From NCBI RefSeq assembly GCF_901875305.1, contig NZ_CABFLY010000001.1, forward strand, positions 124,001 through 188,000: 64,000 nt of DNA. Reading direction: 5' to 3'. Below the pieces are notes generated by a model. That model saw only the letters and a program-made list of their open reading frames with translations, was not told the DNA's origin and searched no databases. Positions within the stretch are counted from its first letter, which is position 1. The number at the start of each line of letters is the position of its first letter. The position numbers and the translations under genes were made by a program. This stretch comes from Rothia mucilaginosa (GTDB lineage Bacteria > Actinomycetota > Actinomycetes > Actinomycetales > Micrococcaceae). Positions 58,739 to 64,000 of the stretch are shown piece by piece.

Positions 58739-59986
58739 ATGGACATTCGAAACACTATCACTCGCTTCGGTGCCACGGCCCTCATTGGTTGCGGTTTGGT
58801 TGTTACTGCCATTCCCGCCACTTTTGCGCAGAACGGTGAGGAAACCGTTACTCACGAATATCAGGACCGTGCCGCCTCCCACATTTCCGAGGTCTGGTAT
58901 AAGGGCGAAACCCTTAAGATTTCCGGTGAGGGTTTCCTGACTCAGGACCGTGCCTCTGGCTCGACTATCGCGATTAAGCTGAACAAGGGCGCTGTCAAGA
59001 TTGACGGCAAGGATTACCTTGAGGTTACTGCTAACGATAAGGGCGAATTTACCGTCTCGATTCCTTGGCAGAATGATTTGGAGGATCGCGTCTCCGTTGA
59101 CGTGTACCTGCTCTCTGGTTCTTTGAAGGATAACGATACTTCCCGTGGCGGTAAGGCTGCGACTGTGAAGATTGAGGCTCGTTCCGTTGCCCCCGAGAGC
59201 CCCAGTGCCTCGGCGAGCGCTGAGCCTTCTGTATCCGCTTCTGCTAGCGCTACCGCTGAGCTGAAGAAGGACTCTGCCGAGGAGCCTAAGGCCGACGCTT
59301 CGGCTAGCCCCTCGGCTTCGGCTACCGCAGCTGACGAGACTGTCGCTTCGGTGGACGCCCAGGTGAAGAACCGCGCCGATGAGAAGGCCTCCGCCTCGGC
59401 TTCGGTGAGCCCTTCGGCTACCGCATCGGCTTCGGCTTCTACCCTTGTTTCTTCTTCTGCTGCTTCCACTGAGGCGAAGAAGGAAAACGAGAAGAAGGTT
59501 GGTGACCAGAAGAACGGTTCCCAGCAGGCTCCCGTTGCGCAGGATCAGTTGGGCGGTTCTTCGAACGTTCAGGCTTCGGCAACCGAGCAGCCTTCGGCTG
59601 AGAGCACTCGCTTCGCGAACTGCACCGAGGTTGCCGCCGCCGGCTTGGCTCCTATTCCGTCGAGCCACCCGGACTTCCGTAAGAAGTTTGACGCTGATAA
59701 TAACGGCCTCGGTTGCGAGGTTGTTGACAACGGTTCCTCTTCGGATGGAAGCTCCTCCTCGAACGGTGGCTCTTCTTCGCAGGATGGTCTTGACTCGGGC
59801 GCATCGGGTACCCAGGATCGTCTTGATTCTTCTTCGTCGAACGCCTCTCTTTCGAGCCGTGCGCAGCGTTCCTCGCTGGCTAACACCGGTGCTTCGAACG
59901 TGTTTACCGTGTCCGGTCTGGGCTTGGTAGCTCTGGGTCTGGGCGTGGCGGGTGTGACTGCTGTGCTGCGTCGTAAGAATTCTTAA
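58739..59986 (+). CDS. LAxTG-anchored surface protein with Excalibur domain (paralogue 1)
   Basis: This 415-residue protein has a signal peptide (to about residue 30), a conserved beta-rich domain of about 120 residues (ISEVWYKGETLKISGEGFL, IAIKLNKGAVKIDGKDYLEV), a long Ala/Ser-rich stalk, an Excalibur calcium-binding domain (FANCTEVAAAG and DFRKKFDADNNGLGCE) and a sorting signal SLANTGASN, followed by a membrane segment and RRKNS. LAxTG rather than LPxTG suggests sortase E. The ATG is only 6 bases after TAAAAT, so the message may be leaderless. It is probably displayed on the cell wall; ligand unknown. Confidence 0.85.
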   Translation: MDIRNTITRFGATALIGCGLVVTAIPATFAQNGEETVTHEYQDRAASHISEVWYKGETLKISGEGFLTQDRASGSTIAIKLNKGAVKIDGKDYLEVTANDKGEFTVSIPWQNDLEDRVSVDVYLLSGSLKDNDTSRGGKAATVKIEARSVAPESPSASASAEPSVSASASATAELKKDSAEEPKADASASPSASATAADETVASVDAQVKNRADEKASASASVSPSATASASASTLVSSSAASTEAKKENEKKVGDQKNGSQQAPVAQDQLGGSSNVQASATEQPSAESTRFANCTEVAAAGLAPIPSSHPDFRKKFDADNNGLGCEVVDNGSSSDGSSSSNGGSSSQDGLDSGASGTQDRLDSSSSNASLSSRAQRSSLANTGASNVFTVSGLGLVALGLGVAGVTAVLRRKNS

Positions 59987-60020
59987 GTTAGTGTTACCGC
60001 GTGATGCGGTATGCGAGGGT

Positions 60021-60072
60021 CCCCTCTGCCGGGCTGTTCAATCGTGGACATCCCGGTAGAGGGGATTTTTTG
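60021..60072 (+). terminator. Terminator of surface-protein gene 1
   Basis: CCCCTCTGCCGGG (60021-60033) pairs with CCCGGTAGAGGGG (60052-60064), followed by ATTTTTTG. Confidence 0.9.
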
Positions 60073-60324
60073 TGTGTGATGGGTCGGGTTGGTGCTTTAG
60101 CGGGGTGAAGGTGCGTGTAGGTTCGCTCGTTTGGGTGCTATTTCACATAAGTTTTTGCATGTGGGTGCTGAATTATGTGGCTAGAAGGGGGTAATATTGC
60201 TTGCCCTATAGTTCAACTCTGGCTTTAAAGAACCTTCAAGAAAACCCTATTTTGTAAGTTAGGTCATATTATTTTCATGGTTTAAGGGCCGGCATCCCAA
60301 GCTTTGCTCGTTAGAATGGGGGGC

Positions 60325-61365
60325 ATGAGCATTCGAAACAACATCGCACGCATCGGCGCCACCGCCCTGATTAGCTGTGGCCTGGTTGCTACTACTGTCC
60401 CCGCTACCTTCGCTGACGAAGCTGCGCAGGAAATCTCTCACACTTACGCGGATTCCGCCCGCCTCATCACTCCCGACACCTGGGTTGAGGGTCAGGGTCT
60501 GATTATCGCGGGTGAGGGCTTCAAGACTGCTGACGGCACTTCCGGTTCCGTGCTGGCTCTGAAGCTGAACAAGGGTGCCGTGAAGATTGACGGCCAGGAT
60601 TACATGGAGATTCACGCTGATGAGTCCGGCAACTTCACTGTCACCGTTCCTTGGCAGAGCGAGCTGAAGGGCCAGGTCTCTGTTGACCTCTACCTGCTGT
60701 CCGGCTCCATGAAGGATGGCGACGTTCCTCGCGGCGGTAAGGCTGCGACCGTGACCATTCAGGCTGTCAAGGACTCGTTGCCCGCTCCCGCACCGAGCGC
60801 TTCTACCGAGCCGACTCCCGCACCGAGCGCTTCTACCGAGCCCACCCCTGAGCCGAGCAAGTCTGCTGAGCCTACTCCTGCACCGTCGGAGGCTTCTCCC
60901 TCTGCTAGCGCCTCCGAGGAGCCTTCCGCTCCGGCCGTTGAGGACGCTAAGGAAACCAAGCCTGCCGAGGACCAGAAGTCTGACGAGGCTTCCGACTCCT
61001 CCGCAAAGGACGAGAAGGCCTACAAGTACCAGAACTGCGCTGACGTATGGGCAGACCGCGGTGGCCCCATTTACAAGGGTGACCCGGACTTCCGTGATAA
61101 GTTCGATGCCAACAACAACAATGTGGGTTGCGAAGAGCAGCCGAACTACGAGAACTCCACGTCTGACAACGACAACCTGGGCTCCAGCTCCTCCAACGAC
61201 AACTTGGATTCCGGCTCCGGTTCCTCCAACGCATCCTCCAAGAGCTCCGCATCCCTGGCTAAGACCGGTGCATCCGGTGCGATGACCGCTGCTGGCCTGG
61301 GTCTGATTGCTCTGGGTGCCGGCGGTGCTGTCGTGGTGGCAACCCGCATGCGTAAGAAGGCATAA
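60325..61365 (+). CDS. LAxTG-anchored surface protein with Excalibur domain (paralogue 2)
   Basis: This 346-residue paralogue of the preceding gene has the same order: signal peptide, beta-rich head (VEGQGLIIAGEGF, LALKLNKGAVKIDGQDYMEI), Pro/Ser/Glu repeats, Excalibur domain (YQNCADVWADRGGP, DFRDKFDANNNNVGCEE) and sorting signal SLAKTGASG with membrane segment and RMRKKA. The start may be ATG 60325 or the in-frame ATG 60316. TAGAAT ends just before 60316, so translation may be leaderless as in paralogue 1. The linker differs in composition from the Ala/Ser stalk of its partner. Confidence 0.85.
   Translation: MSIRNNIARIGATALISCGLVATTVPATFADEAAQEISHTYADSARLITPDTWVEGQGLIIAGEGFKTADGTSGSVLALKLNKGAVKIDGQDYMEIHADESGNFTVTVPWQSELKGQVSVDLYLLSGSMKDGDVPRGGKAATVTIQAVKDSLPAPAPSASTEPTPAPSASTEPTPEPSKSAEPTPAPSEASPSASASEEPSAPAVEDAKETKPAEDQKSDEASDSSAKDEKAYKYQNCADVWADRGGPIYKGDPDFRDKFDANNNNVGCEEQPNYENSTSDNDNLGSSSSNDNLDSGSGSSNASSKSSASLAKTGASGAMTAAGLGLIALGAGGAVVVATRMRKKA
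60781..60900 (+). repeat. 30-bp tandem repeats in surface-protein gene 2
   Basis: Units begin at 60781, 60811, 60841 and 60871. The first two are nearly identical and the rest degenerate. They encode a 10-residue Pro/Ala/Ser/Thr/Glu stalk and could vary in copy number among strains. Confidence 0.85.
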
Positions 61366-61405
61366 GTACATACTGAATTCTAGGGTTACTCCCTAGAAAC
61401 CCGAG

Positions 61406-61442
61406 TGGGGCTCCCTCTGATGTAGAGGGGGCCCCATTTGTT
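61406..61442 (+). terminator. Terminator of surface-protein gene 2
   Basis: TGGGGCTCCCTCT (61406-61418) pairs with AGAGGGGGCCCCA (61424-61436) with one wobble; TTTGTTG follows. Confidence 0.88.
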
Positions 61443-61686
61443 GTATCCGGGCGCGGCTGACCGCCTCACTGCGCCCCGGTAATTGAAAAAACCTTAAAGG
61501 TAAAACGCTCTGACCAGTCATTTAATCGGTGTTCGCGAAGACATAAGTGAGAATTACAGAGAGCACAGGCGTGACACAGCTTCGGACGGGATTCTAGAAA
61601 CCAAGCAGAAAACGTAGGTACCCAACCGGAGCTGAGAACGGACGGGCCGGAAGATCAGGAACCTACCCGACGACCTGGAGCATCCC

Positions 61687-62385
61687 ATGACAATCCTGAC
61701 CATGGCGATTGCAGACGCCCTCGCGATCGCAAGCCTATGCACCCTTTACCTGGTGCGTCACCGCAACCGCGAATTGATGATTTCTTACGCGGTCATCAAC
61801 GCCGGTATCTTCACCGTTTCGGTCGCCCTGGTCTCGGCGGGCTCGAACGCCTCGGCCATGGGCATGGGCCTCTTCGGTGTCCTGTCGATTATTCGACTGC
61901 GCTCCACCGCGCTGAGCCAGCGGGAGGTTGGCTACTACTTCGTAGCCCTCTCAGTCGGCATGATCGCGGGTGTGAACATTAGCCCGGCGTACATCGCCTT
62001 CGGCCTCATGGCTACCCTGATCGCCCTGATCGCGGTCCTCGACTCGCGCGGCGCCCCGATCTCTACTGAAAAGACTCAGGACGTTACCGCCGACCGCGCG
62101 ATTAGTGATGAAGAAGAGCTCAAGGCCTACCTGGGCGCTCGCCTGGGCTACACCATCACCGCGGTCAAGGTGACCGAGCTGGACCTGGTGAACGCCCTGA
62201 CCCGCGCCACCATCACCTACCAGCCCAAGGACATTGCCGAAGGCAACGCCCCCGCAGCGGTATCCCAGATTTCTGCGACTCAGCCCGTGGCCGCGTCGCA
62301 TCGAGCGGTGGCACCCACCGCCGAGGCGCACACCACCTTGGACACCCGGATGATGCCGCTACAGCGCACCCTGGTAGGTAAGTAA
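61687..62385 (+). CDS. DUF4956 membrane protein
   Basis: This 232-residue protein has about four membrane segments in its first 115 residues, including MGLFGVLSIIRLRSTALSQREVGYYF, which is the DUF4956 hallmark (quoted in parts, with IRLRS conserved). A cytosolic C-terminal part of about 115 residues follows. The family commonly neighbours VTC-domain genes, as here, and may be a channel or partner for the polymerase. Function is unproven. CTGGAGC lies before the ATG. It is first in a cluster of at least three genes. Confidence 0.82.
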   Translation: MTILTMAIADALAIASLCTLYLVRHRNRELMISYAVINAGIFTVSVALVSAGSNASAMGMGLFGVLSIIRLRSTALSQREVGYYFVALSVGMIAGVNISPAYIAFGLMATLIALIAVLDSRGAPISTEKTQDVTADRAISDEEELKAYLGARLGYTITAVKVTELDLVNALTRATITYQPKDIAEGNAPAAVSQISATQPVAASHRAVAPTAEAHTTLDTRMMPLQRTLVGK

Positions 62386-62503
62386 GAGCAGCCGGTATAA
62401 AAGCCTCCGATTCACTCCAACTGCACAAACATCTCCGATACCCACGACACGCCGCCCCCAGCGCACAGCACGCAGGGACGGCACCCCAGAAGGACGAAGA
62501 CCC

Positions 62504-63424
62504 ATGACGAACGCAGCCGCAAATATCATCCCCGCAGAGTGGAAGAGCATCAGCCTCGAAGCCATGAACGAGAAGGCAGCCATGCAGACCCGCGTGGACC
62601 GCAAGTACATCGTCGATGCAGAAACCGCCGCCAAGGTGCTCTCCGCGCTCGACGCAGATGCCTCCGTCATGGACATCAACGGCCAGCGCGACTTCGCCTA
62701 CGACTCGGTCTACTTCGACACCCCGCAGATGCAGAGCTACCACTCGGCAGCCTACAGCCGCGACGATACCTTCAAGATTCGTACCCGCAGCTACCTGGAC
62801 TCGGAGCTGACCTTCCTGGAGGTCAAGACCGACGGTGAGCAGGACATGACCGTCAAGAAGCGTACCCCGTACACCTTCGAGAACCGCGATACGCTCACCG
62901 CGGGAGGTCGAGAGTACATCACCGCGGCACTCGGCGACATCCTCGCGGGTCCCGTGCACAAGCTGGAGGCGGTCCTGACCACCGGCTACCGCCGTACCAC
63001 GGTCTTCCTACCGCAGAGCGAGAAGAACCCGGCTGCCTCCCGCATGACGGTGGATACCAACCTGACCTGGACTCCTTTGTCCGAGAACATCCTCATGGCG
63101 GGCGTGAACTACCGCAACTTCCACGGCAACCTGGTTGGCACCGTCTACGGCCTGTCGAATGCGGTCATCATCGAAACCAAGTCCGGTGTGGAGCCCTCTG
63201 TGGCGGACCGGCACCTCTGGGATGCGGGTATTACCCCCTCGAAGATTTCCAAGTTTGCAACCGGTATGGCGGCGCTGAACCCGCAGCTGGCAAGCAACAA
63301 GTGGAAAGAAACCCTGGAGAACTGGATGCACCTGGAACCGGTCAACGGCACCCGCCTGAACGTGGGTGCACTGACCGAGGAAGACTACCGCAAGCTCCTG
63401 ACCGAACACTACGCAGCCGCCTAA
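62504..63424 (+). CDS. VTC-domain protein (putative polyphosphate polymerase)
   Basis: This 306-residue protein is a triphosphate-tunnel-type VTC domain. Tunnel residues appear in TRVDRKYIVD near residues 29-38, YDSVYFDTPQMQSYH, FKIRTRSYLDS, LEVKTDGEQDMTVKKR and IIETKSGV. In yeast Vtc4 this domain makes polyphosphate from ATP, using basic residues and a metal bound by glutamates, all of which have counterparts here. Bacterial homologues are small, soluble and often paired with DUF4956 proteins. Actual product in bacteria is not settled. GAAGGACGAAG precedes the ATG. Confidence 0.85.
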   Translation: MTNAAANIIPAEWKSISLEAMNEKAAMQTRVDRKYIVDAETAAKVLSALDADASVMDINGQRDFAYDSVYFDTPQMQSYHSAAYSRDDTFKIRTRSYLDSELTFLEVKTDGEQDMTVKKRTPYTFENRDTLTAGGREYITAALGDILAGPVHKLEAVLTTGYRRTTVFLPQSEKNPAASRMTVDTNLTWTPLSENILMAGVNYRNFHGNLVGTVYGLSNAVIIETKSGVEPSVADRHLWDAGITPSKISKFATGMAALNPQLASNKWKETLENWMHLEPVNGTRLNVGALTEEDYRKLLTEHYAAA

Positions 63425-63635
63425 AACGGCAACCCGTCTAAAGGCAATCTGGGATGCGCGGGTGGGGCCACAAATCCTACTCGCGCAGACATAAAATCAG
63501 GCCCTGACCAGGTATAACCCTGTTCAGACGCAGGCACCAGCAGGATTCGCCAAGACTATGCCTGACTCCCAAAGACTTACCCGAAAAAAGCAGTGGCACT
63601 ACATAGTGCTTGTGAACCACGAAGAAGGAAAACCC

Positions 63636-64000
63636 GTGAAAAAGAGCAATATGATCAAGAGTGCAACCTCCATTACCCTTCTGGCGGCCCTGGCGTTGAC
63701 CGGCTGCTCGGCAACCTCCACCTCGAACACCAGCGCGGCGAGCGCCATCAGCACCTCCGCTTCGAGTAGCTCCGGCACCAAGTCGAAGACCGCCGATTCA
63801 TTCTCCACCGATGTGAAGAACGGCGCGAAGCTCGCCGAGGACACCCACTATTCCGCCAAGGATCTGACCTGGGATTCCTCCAGCGAAGTCACTATCGATC
63901 TTTCGAACCCGACCGCGACCGATGGCGTGACCGTCAGTGACGGCGTCATTACCATCACCAAGGCGGGTAACTACCGCTTGAGCGGCACCTACGCGGGCCA
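63636..64000 (+). CDS. Lipoprotein with a Cthe_2159-like carbohydrate-binding domain (3' end outside window)
   Basis: Start is GTG at 63636 with AAGGAAAA upstream. The signal peptide ends with lipobox LTGC at about residue 23, then comes a Ser/Thr-rich tether. The visible start of the next domain (DLTWDSSSEVTIDLSNPTA, VTVSDGVITITKAGNYRLSGTYAG) looks like the right-handed beta-helix family of Cthe_2159, a polysaccharide/calcium-binding lipoprotein. Such proteins often follow VTC and DUF4956 genes. The gene runs off the window; 121 codons are visible. Confidence 0.75.
   Translation, partial: MKKSNMIKSATSITLLAALALTGCSATSTSNTSAASAISTSASSSSGTKSKTADSFSTDVKNGAKLAEDTHYSAKDLTWDSSSEVTIDLSNPTATDGVTVSDGVITITKAGNYRLSGTYAG

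Follow-up and report, generated by a model that had tools for sequence, protein, structure and literature searches.

The yeast VTC complex (Vtc1/Vtc3/Vtc4) is reported to translocate polyphosphate as it is made, by way of a basic channel whose basic residues are needed for the transfer, and to be inactivated by alteration of R264, R266 and E426 (PMC9911596). Among bacteria, a CotH-PPP-DUF4956 set, in some cases with DUF4832, has been described beside pel operons (PMC7112168) and corresponds to SIR_1591–1594 of S. intermedius (PMC12345266). The accessible parts of the latter study report no effect on Pel or aggregation for deletion of the VTC gene SIR_1593, more Pel and less aggregation for deletion of SIR_1592, and a changed amount of Pel for deletion of the CotH-like SIR_1594. 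By its order and description SIR_1592 would be the DUF4956 gene; its predicted domains, according to the same study, are MgtC and ACT, and the authors, as far as the available text extends, failed to find this three-gene synteny outside the pel locus (PMC12345266). A further set, NELoc-2 of C. perfringens, reads VTC-‘tubulin’-VTC-‘tubulin’-CotH-HEAT-chitin-synthase-like in the section at hand (PMC2879425), where the 222–226 aa membrane ‘tubulin’ genes are probably DUF4956. Cthe_2159 proteins are reported, in the part of the source available, to bind celluloses and polygalacturonic acid (PMC6712302).

The locus analyzed here lies at the end of the window, a stretch of 64,000 nt from Rothia mucilaginosa, and consists of three genes preceded by a hairpin:

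61402..61440, + strand: stable RNA hairpin (18 pairs, lacking a T-run) that separates the module from the Excalibur gene upstream of it
61687..62385, + strand: DUF4956 membrane protein, 232 aa (PF16316, E 1.7e-46)
62504..63424, + strand: VTC-domain enzyme, 306 aa, a Vtc4-type triphosphate tunnel protein (PF09359, E 6.3e-25)
63636..64000 (window end), + strand: 5' part of a Cthe_2159-type beta-helix lipoprotein with lipobox LTGC (L001 orthologue with PF14262 and 4peu matches)

An earlier note on this DNA had placed a DUF4956, a VTC and a lipoprotein gene in one direction with short gaps, and the arrangement was confirmed, with intergenic gaps of 118 nt (DUF4956-VTC) and 211 nt (VTC-lipoprotein), a DUF4956 domain score of 158.4 bits (Pfam cut-off, 30.6) and a VTC domain match that spans positions 2–234 of the 235-position Pfam profile. 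The assignment of the third gene as a lipoprotein with a Cthe_2159 domain also stood. A start at GTG 63636, with the lipobox LTGC, is better than one at ATG 63558, and only the first part of the frame lies inside the window, where it has no Pfam match. The full-length orthologue in R. mucilaginosa (L001:11117-12820, 567 aa; 92.6% identity across the 121 common codons) is a Cthe_2159 protein (PF14262, E 1e-74) that matches structure 4peu/4phb (E 8e-35), and the orthologue in region L002 likewise has a PF14262 match. The window VTC protein is 93% identical to that of L001 and 90% identical to that of L002. Against L001, substitutions at codon positions 1/2/3 numbered 28/17/67 for DUF4956, 11/11/44 for VTC and 9/5/23 for the lipoprotein, and this excess at third positions supports coding by all three genes and fits purifying selection.

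Compared to the yeast complex, the locus shares a VTC catalytic domain with nearly all of the Vtc4 tunnel residues and a membrane partner with basic residues, here DUF4956, that would sit at the cytosolic mouth. It differs in having no SPX match, in the addition of an exported partner, in its presumed location in the bacterial plasma membrane, and in its membrane gene, which is DUF4956, with no Vtc1-type protein among the genes scanned (window end and L001). The pel-linked set, as described in the available text, has the same VTC and DUF4956 pair and an exported third gene, whereas Rothia possesses Cthe_2159 in place of CotH and no VTC genome surveyed has a PelG match. The lipoprotein resembles Clostridium thermocellum Cthe_2159 (4peu/4phb) in its beta-helix domain, by sequence, and its lipoprotein-like N-terminus, though the L001 protein has a glycine-rich region towards the C-terminus.

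The absence of co-conservation in related genomes had been named beforehand as evidence against the grouping; co-conservation was strongly present. A single draw of 296 Actinomycetota genomes around G001 (the genome of L001, included) was searched for four families. VTC was found in 32 genomes and DUF4956 in 33 (E ≤ 0.001; 31 above the Pfam cut-off, with G226, which has VTC, at 29.0 vs 30.6 bits and G276, which lacks VTC, below it), such that a DUF4956 match occurred in 32/32 VTC genomes compared to one weak match in the 264 genomes without VTC. Cthe_2159 was present in 16 genomes (15 with VTC) and CotH in 21 (20 with VTC). Fisher tests of VTC against DUF4956 (p = 4e-42), Cthe_2159 (p = 1e-15) and CotH (p = 8e-22) are over-optimistic, the genomes being related. 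A same-strand DUF4956 stood at 34 of 35 VTC places, with domain matches ≤360 bp apart; only G206 (L076) departs from this, with one VTC copy out of its three that has CotH but no DUF4956 nearby. The pairing of VTC and DUF4956 is near-obligate, and the module is almost certainly real and functional as a unit. Within 14 named control genomes, VTC and DUF4956 each matched the genomes of Bacteroides ihuae, C. glutamicum and Methanosarcina acetivorans and neither matched the others; CotH matched two of these three as well as B. subtilis, itself without a VTC match, and Cthe_2159 matched only B. ihuae. In one surveyed genome, G101 (L064), the VTC and DUF4956 matches carry in-frame stops (TAG and TGA, respectively), either decay or sequencing error.

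Within the genus of G001 (35 genomes), VTC was present in 17, and 17/17 also carry DUF4956 and Cthe_2159 (Fisher p = 4e-9 and 4e-8, with independence overstated for related genomes). Each partner lay on the VTC contig within 0.9 kb in 16/17 genomes, the exceptions, G327 and G313, each having one family member placed on a different contig from VTC. Among the 18 genomes without VTC, one had a partial DUF4956 match (G302) and two a 34-position Cthe_2159 match (G314, G315), which are perhaps remnants of the module. Because the three families co-occur in 17 genomes and VTC is found in no others, the module is present or absent nearly as a unit. One member of the genus has several Cthe_2159 matches in a row beside the module (G298:C1:77578-82531), of which some are fragments and one is interrupted by a stop codon.

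The identity of the third gene is the variable part. The 32 VTC genomes contained CotH only (n = 16), Cthe_2159 only (n = 11), both (n = 4) or neither (n = 1), a mutual avoidance (p = 1.3e-4) that kinship of the genomes inflates. A partner occurred within 2.3 kb at 32/35 VTC places, with 19 CotH only, 12 Cthe_2159 only and one with both (G188); the three places without an adjacent partner were in G110 and G149 (CotH on another contig) and G226 (contig end). Both partner families also occur outside the module, CotH in G159 and Bacillus subtilis (no VTC match) and Cthe_2159 in G014, with copies distant from VTC in G033 and G115. On a maximum likelihood tree of 36 VTC sequences (32 labelled with a partner, four not), four changes between CotH and Cthe_2159 were required, compared to a mean of 10.3 after shuffling, and all four are forced by well-supported branches. 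The tree requires at least four exchanges of partner, and the third gene is replaceable. The partners likely carry export signals: in a crude scan with uncertain starts, 26/32 copies had a hydrophobic segment ahead of the partner domain and 31/32 had either a segment or a lipobox-like pattern, though in at least two the pattern was far from the likely N-terminus. In G296 (L087:4010-6382, − strand), VTC and CotH share one 848-codon open frame with a hydrophobic segment and a lipobox between them, possibly a natural membrane-spanning fusion; an internal start is also possible.

Plasmids extend the range of partners. Searches by tblastn returned 4, 16 and 3 records (21 distinct), and 11 stretches from 11 records were examined, with eight Aminobacter, one Shinella and one Streptomyces record and a second Nonomuraea place left aside. 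VTC and DUF4956 were adjacent in 11/11 loci from four phyla (by our own profiles in all, by annotation in seven), with a 23-nt overlap of the two genes in Aminobacter and Shinella. The partner was CotH in five (Planococcus, Pseudobutyrivibrio, Nonomuraea, Deinococcus taeanensis and Enterococcus, the last with a two-component system in between), Cthe_2159 in one (Paenibacillus), and a phytase-like PF13449 protein in three alphaproteobacterial plasmids, one of which adds a PHO4 phosphate transporter. Two loci had no CotH, Cthe_2159 or PF13449 match; Deinococcus QL22 has an annotated acid phosphatase on the opposite strand and Acetoanaerobium a PLD-like protein. The Planococcus plasmid order, VTC-DUF4956-CotH-hypothetical-HEAT-glycosyltransferase, resembles that of NELoc-2, a likeness in the described gene order (PMC2879425, from the available part).

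To characterize the VTC protein, a profile was built from 32 aligned sequences (the window protein, 12 database proteins and copies from 19 of the 36 regions). Its top match was to the catalytic Vtc4 structures (3g3q, E 1.9e-24), with weaker matches to the Vtc2 and Vtc3 subunits (2.4e-12 and 9e-9). In Vtc4 numbering, R196, K200, R264, R266, K281, K294, R361, R373, E426, K428 and K458 were invariant in 32/32 and S457 was kept in 31/32, while Y359 was Tyr in 27/32 and K455 was variable (8/32 Lys, 10 Arg); the window protein itself keeps the tunnel residues R264, R266, K281, K294, R361, R373, E426 and K458. The other 17 VTC copies, from the survey and L001/L002 and including the divergent G188, were checked after this alignment and agree at the tunnel residues; the only departures are a gap (G262) and a truncated end (G101). 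None of the 32 VTC proteins scanned, the window protein among them, had an SPX match. Since it matches Vtc4 over the whole domain and keeps almost every tunnel residue, the VTC protein is, as a best guess, a polyphosphate polymerase, and it probably makes polyphosphate, as far as sequence can indicate. PPK1 occurs in 25/33 VTC genomes, including both Rothia tested, and was not found in 8/33; as both Rothia carry PPK1, VTC is not the sole possible source of polyphosphate there.

At positions where basic residues of Vtc4 guide the chain, hydrolytic relatives are acidic, according to the section available (PMC4641920). The window protein has R30 and K226 as in Vtc4 and D32 where Vtc4 has T198, and these three positions would be equivalent to the acidic positions of hydrolytic enzymes such as AtTTM3. 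The T198 position is Asp or Glu in 31/32 aligned sequences and in 16/17 of the further copies (one gap). In hydrolytic tunnel enzymes the second-metal site presumably lies near this position, and with such a residue the VTC protein could still be a hydrolase.

An alignment of 49 DUF4956 sequences (the window protein, 17 database proteins and 31 survey copies, excluding G226, G101 [internal stop] and the L001/L002 copies) identified Y21, R70 and R72 as invariant in 49/49, the two arginines forming an RxR motif. The AF2 model of the protein (mean pLDDT 78.7) has five helices (3–25, 28–51, 55–72, 78–95 and 101–120), followed by a C-terminal beta-alpha-beta-beta domain that is ACT/ferredoxin-like. 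If the five helices cross the membrane and the C-terminus is cytosolic, R70 and R72 would be at the cytoplasmic end of helix 3, a placement that fits the positive-inside rule. Searches against PDB chains, Vtc1 included, gave no sequence match for the protein, and its model had no significant fold match in the PDB. The window protein has no MgtC match at E values up to 1; among the 49 aligned sequences MgtC matches 11 weakly (best E 2.5e-4) and ACT_4 matches one. Passage of the product out of the cell by way of DUF4956 is reasonably likely.

Upstream, window positions 58739-61365 encode a pair of LAxTG surface paralogues that carry Excalibur domains. The earlier note had pointed to these as calcium-binding proteins directly upstream; the domain matches are real (Pfam), but relatives beside the module were found in L001 and L002 only and in none of the other 34 regions at the blastp threshold used, and the Excalibur proteins are outside the module. 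The L001 orthologue of the second protein has no Excalibur match, while the L002 orthologue has one. The hairpin at 61402–61440 separates the Excalibur genes from DUF4956, and the fold of 61365–61450 has a minimum free energy of −45.5 kcal/mol (z of the whole fold, −5.66). The hairpin was not among the terminators listed by a consensus terminator scan, and is a possible transcription boundary. Downstream of the lipoprotein in L001 are a DUF3073 ORF, a NAGPA phosphodiester glycosidase and a GT2-GtrA protein, followed by an opposite-strand subtilase. GT2-GtrA relatives occur beside the module in L001 and L002 only, and NAGPA relatives in one further region, that of G188. A CotH-type kinase, which the earlier note had proposed to look for downstream, was found neither in the L001 and L002 loci nor elsewhere in the L001 genome, unlike in other genomes, where CotH occupies the place of the third gene. 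S8 peptidases lie a few kb from the module in Aminobacter, Nitratireductor (L093, L095) and Rothia (L001), possibly by chance.

We propose, with a probability of roughly 55%, that the module couples polyphosphate synthesis to export, with the exported protein serving to bind or use the polymer. The cytosolic VTC protein would polymerize phosphate from ATP into polyphosphate, like yeast Vtc4. DUF4956 would be the membrane component, its ACT-like domain reaching into the cytosol and its invariant arginines lining the mouth on the cytoplasmic side, and would act as docking site, regulator and conduit through which the growing chain is passed outside, a role comparable to that of yeast Vtc1, the transmembrane helices and the SPX domains. 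The exported third protein would then hold or use the polymer at the surface, the Cthe_2159 lipoprotein in Rothia and CotH kinase-like or phytase-like proteins elsewhere. Several observations weigh against the proposal: deletion of SIR_1593 had no reported effect in S. intermedius (PMC12345266), the T198 position is acidic and K455 poorly conserved, DUF4956 matches neither Vtc1 nor a known fold, both partner families also occur away from the module, one G206 copy lacks a nearby DUF4956, and most VTC genomes have PPK1.

Each of the other explanations accounts for a part of these observations. The module could be a regulator of phosphate status, with an MgtC-like DUF4956 and a VTC protein that synthesizes or breaks down a small triphosphate or polyphosphate signal in the cytosol, with no polymer exported. 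The weak MgtC and ACT_4 matches, the domains predicted for SIR_1592 in the available text (PMC12345266) and the Asp/Glu at the T198 position all point in this direction, as do the histidine kinase and OmpR-type regulator in the flanks examined of 11/36 regions (L057, L058, L061, L066, L069, L072, L078, L082, L084, L085 and L086; domains confirmed for one pair) and near the module in two plasmid loci. Six of the 11 systems are divergently oriented and lie no more than 0.4 kb from the VTC match, and none is in L001/L002. A regulator leaves unexplained, however, both the nearly constant, exchangeable exported third gene and the basic R30 and K226 where hydrolytic relatives are taken to be acidic, and we consider it unlikely. 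Storage of VTC polyphosphate inside the cell, with DUF4956 merely an anchor and the lipoprotein an unrelated neighbour, would suit the VTC genomes in which PPK1 was not found, where VTC could be the main polymerase; as most VTC genomes already have PPK1 and Cthe_2159 is co-inherited with VTC throughout the genus, this seems very improbable.

The module might instead be an accessory to exopolysaccharide export that modifies, charges or regulates a polysaccharide made nearby, on which the exported partner acts. The pel-linked sets (PMC7112168), the altered Pel amounts of the SIR_1592 and SIR_1594 deletions (PMC12345266) and the ligands of Cthe_2159 proteins (PMC6712302), each as given in the available portions of the sources, are consistent with such a role, and glycosyltransferases occur near two plasmid modules, beside the L056/G021 module, to which three further regions add related ORFs, and, in L001, 3.8 kb beyond VTC. 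Against this, PelG was found in 0/33 VTC genomes, G001 and G002 included (the control search matched in Thermotoga maritima), no glycosyltransferase cluster is common to most of the 36 regions, and the neighbours in alphaproteobacteria and one Deinococcus are phosphate-related. We regard this explanation, too, as unlikely. CotH, VTC and DUF4956 occur together in surveyed genomes without a PelG match, in contrast to the failure, in the accessible text of PMC12345266, to find such synteny outside the pel locus.

While CotH-VTC-DUF4956 genes beside pel were already described, the present analysis adds that the pairing is near-obligate, that the partner is swappable, that the genes occur in the absence of pel and that the active site is of Vtc4 type. 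It suggests that the pel-linked genes belong to a module able to stand without Pel. If synthesis is coupled to export, VTC/DUF4956 could conceivably be the bacterial counterpart of the synthesis-coupled polyphosphate translocator of yeast. The polyphosphate that it exports would then serve the extracytoplasmic partner as ligand or phosphate donor: a source of phosphoryl groups for CotH kinases where ATP is unavailable, a substrate for the phytase-like proteins and a calcium-bridged polyanion held by the Cthe_2159 lipoproteins of Rothia, a tentative extension that we hold to be improbable as a whole. The laboratory species Corynebacterium glutamicum, in which VTC, DUF4956 and CotH matches are present in the genome (adjacency aside) and a PPK1 match is absent, may serve as a safe model. 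To our knowledge, there is no established route for the display of bacterial polyphosphate at the cell surface, and no phosphate donor is established for extracytoplasmic kinases such as CotH. A polymerase and membrane protein pair with a swappable exported protein would be a genetically simple candidate for both.
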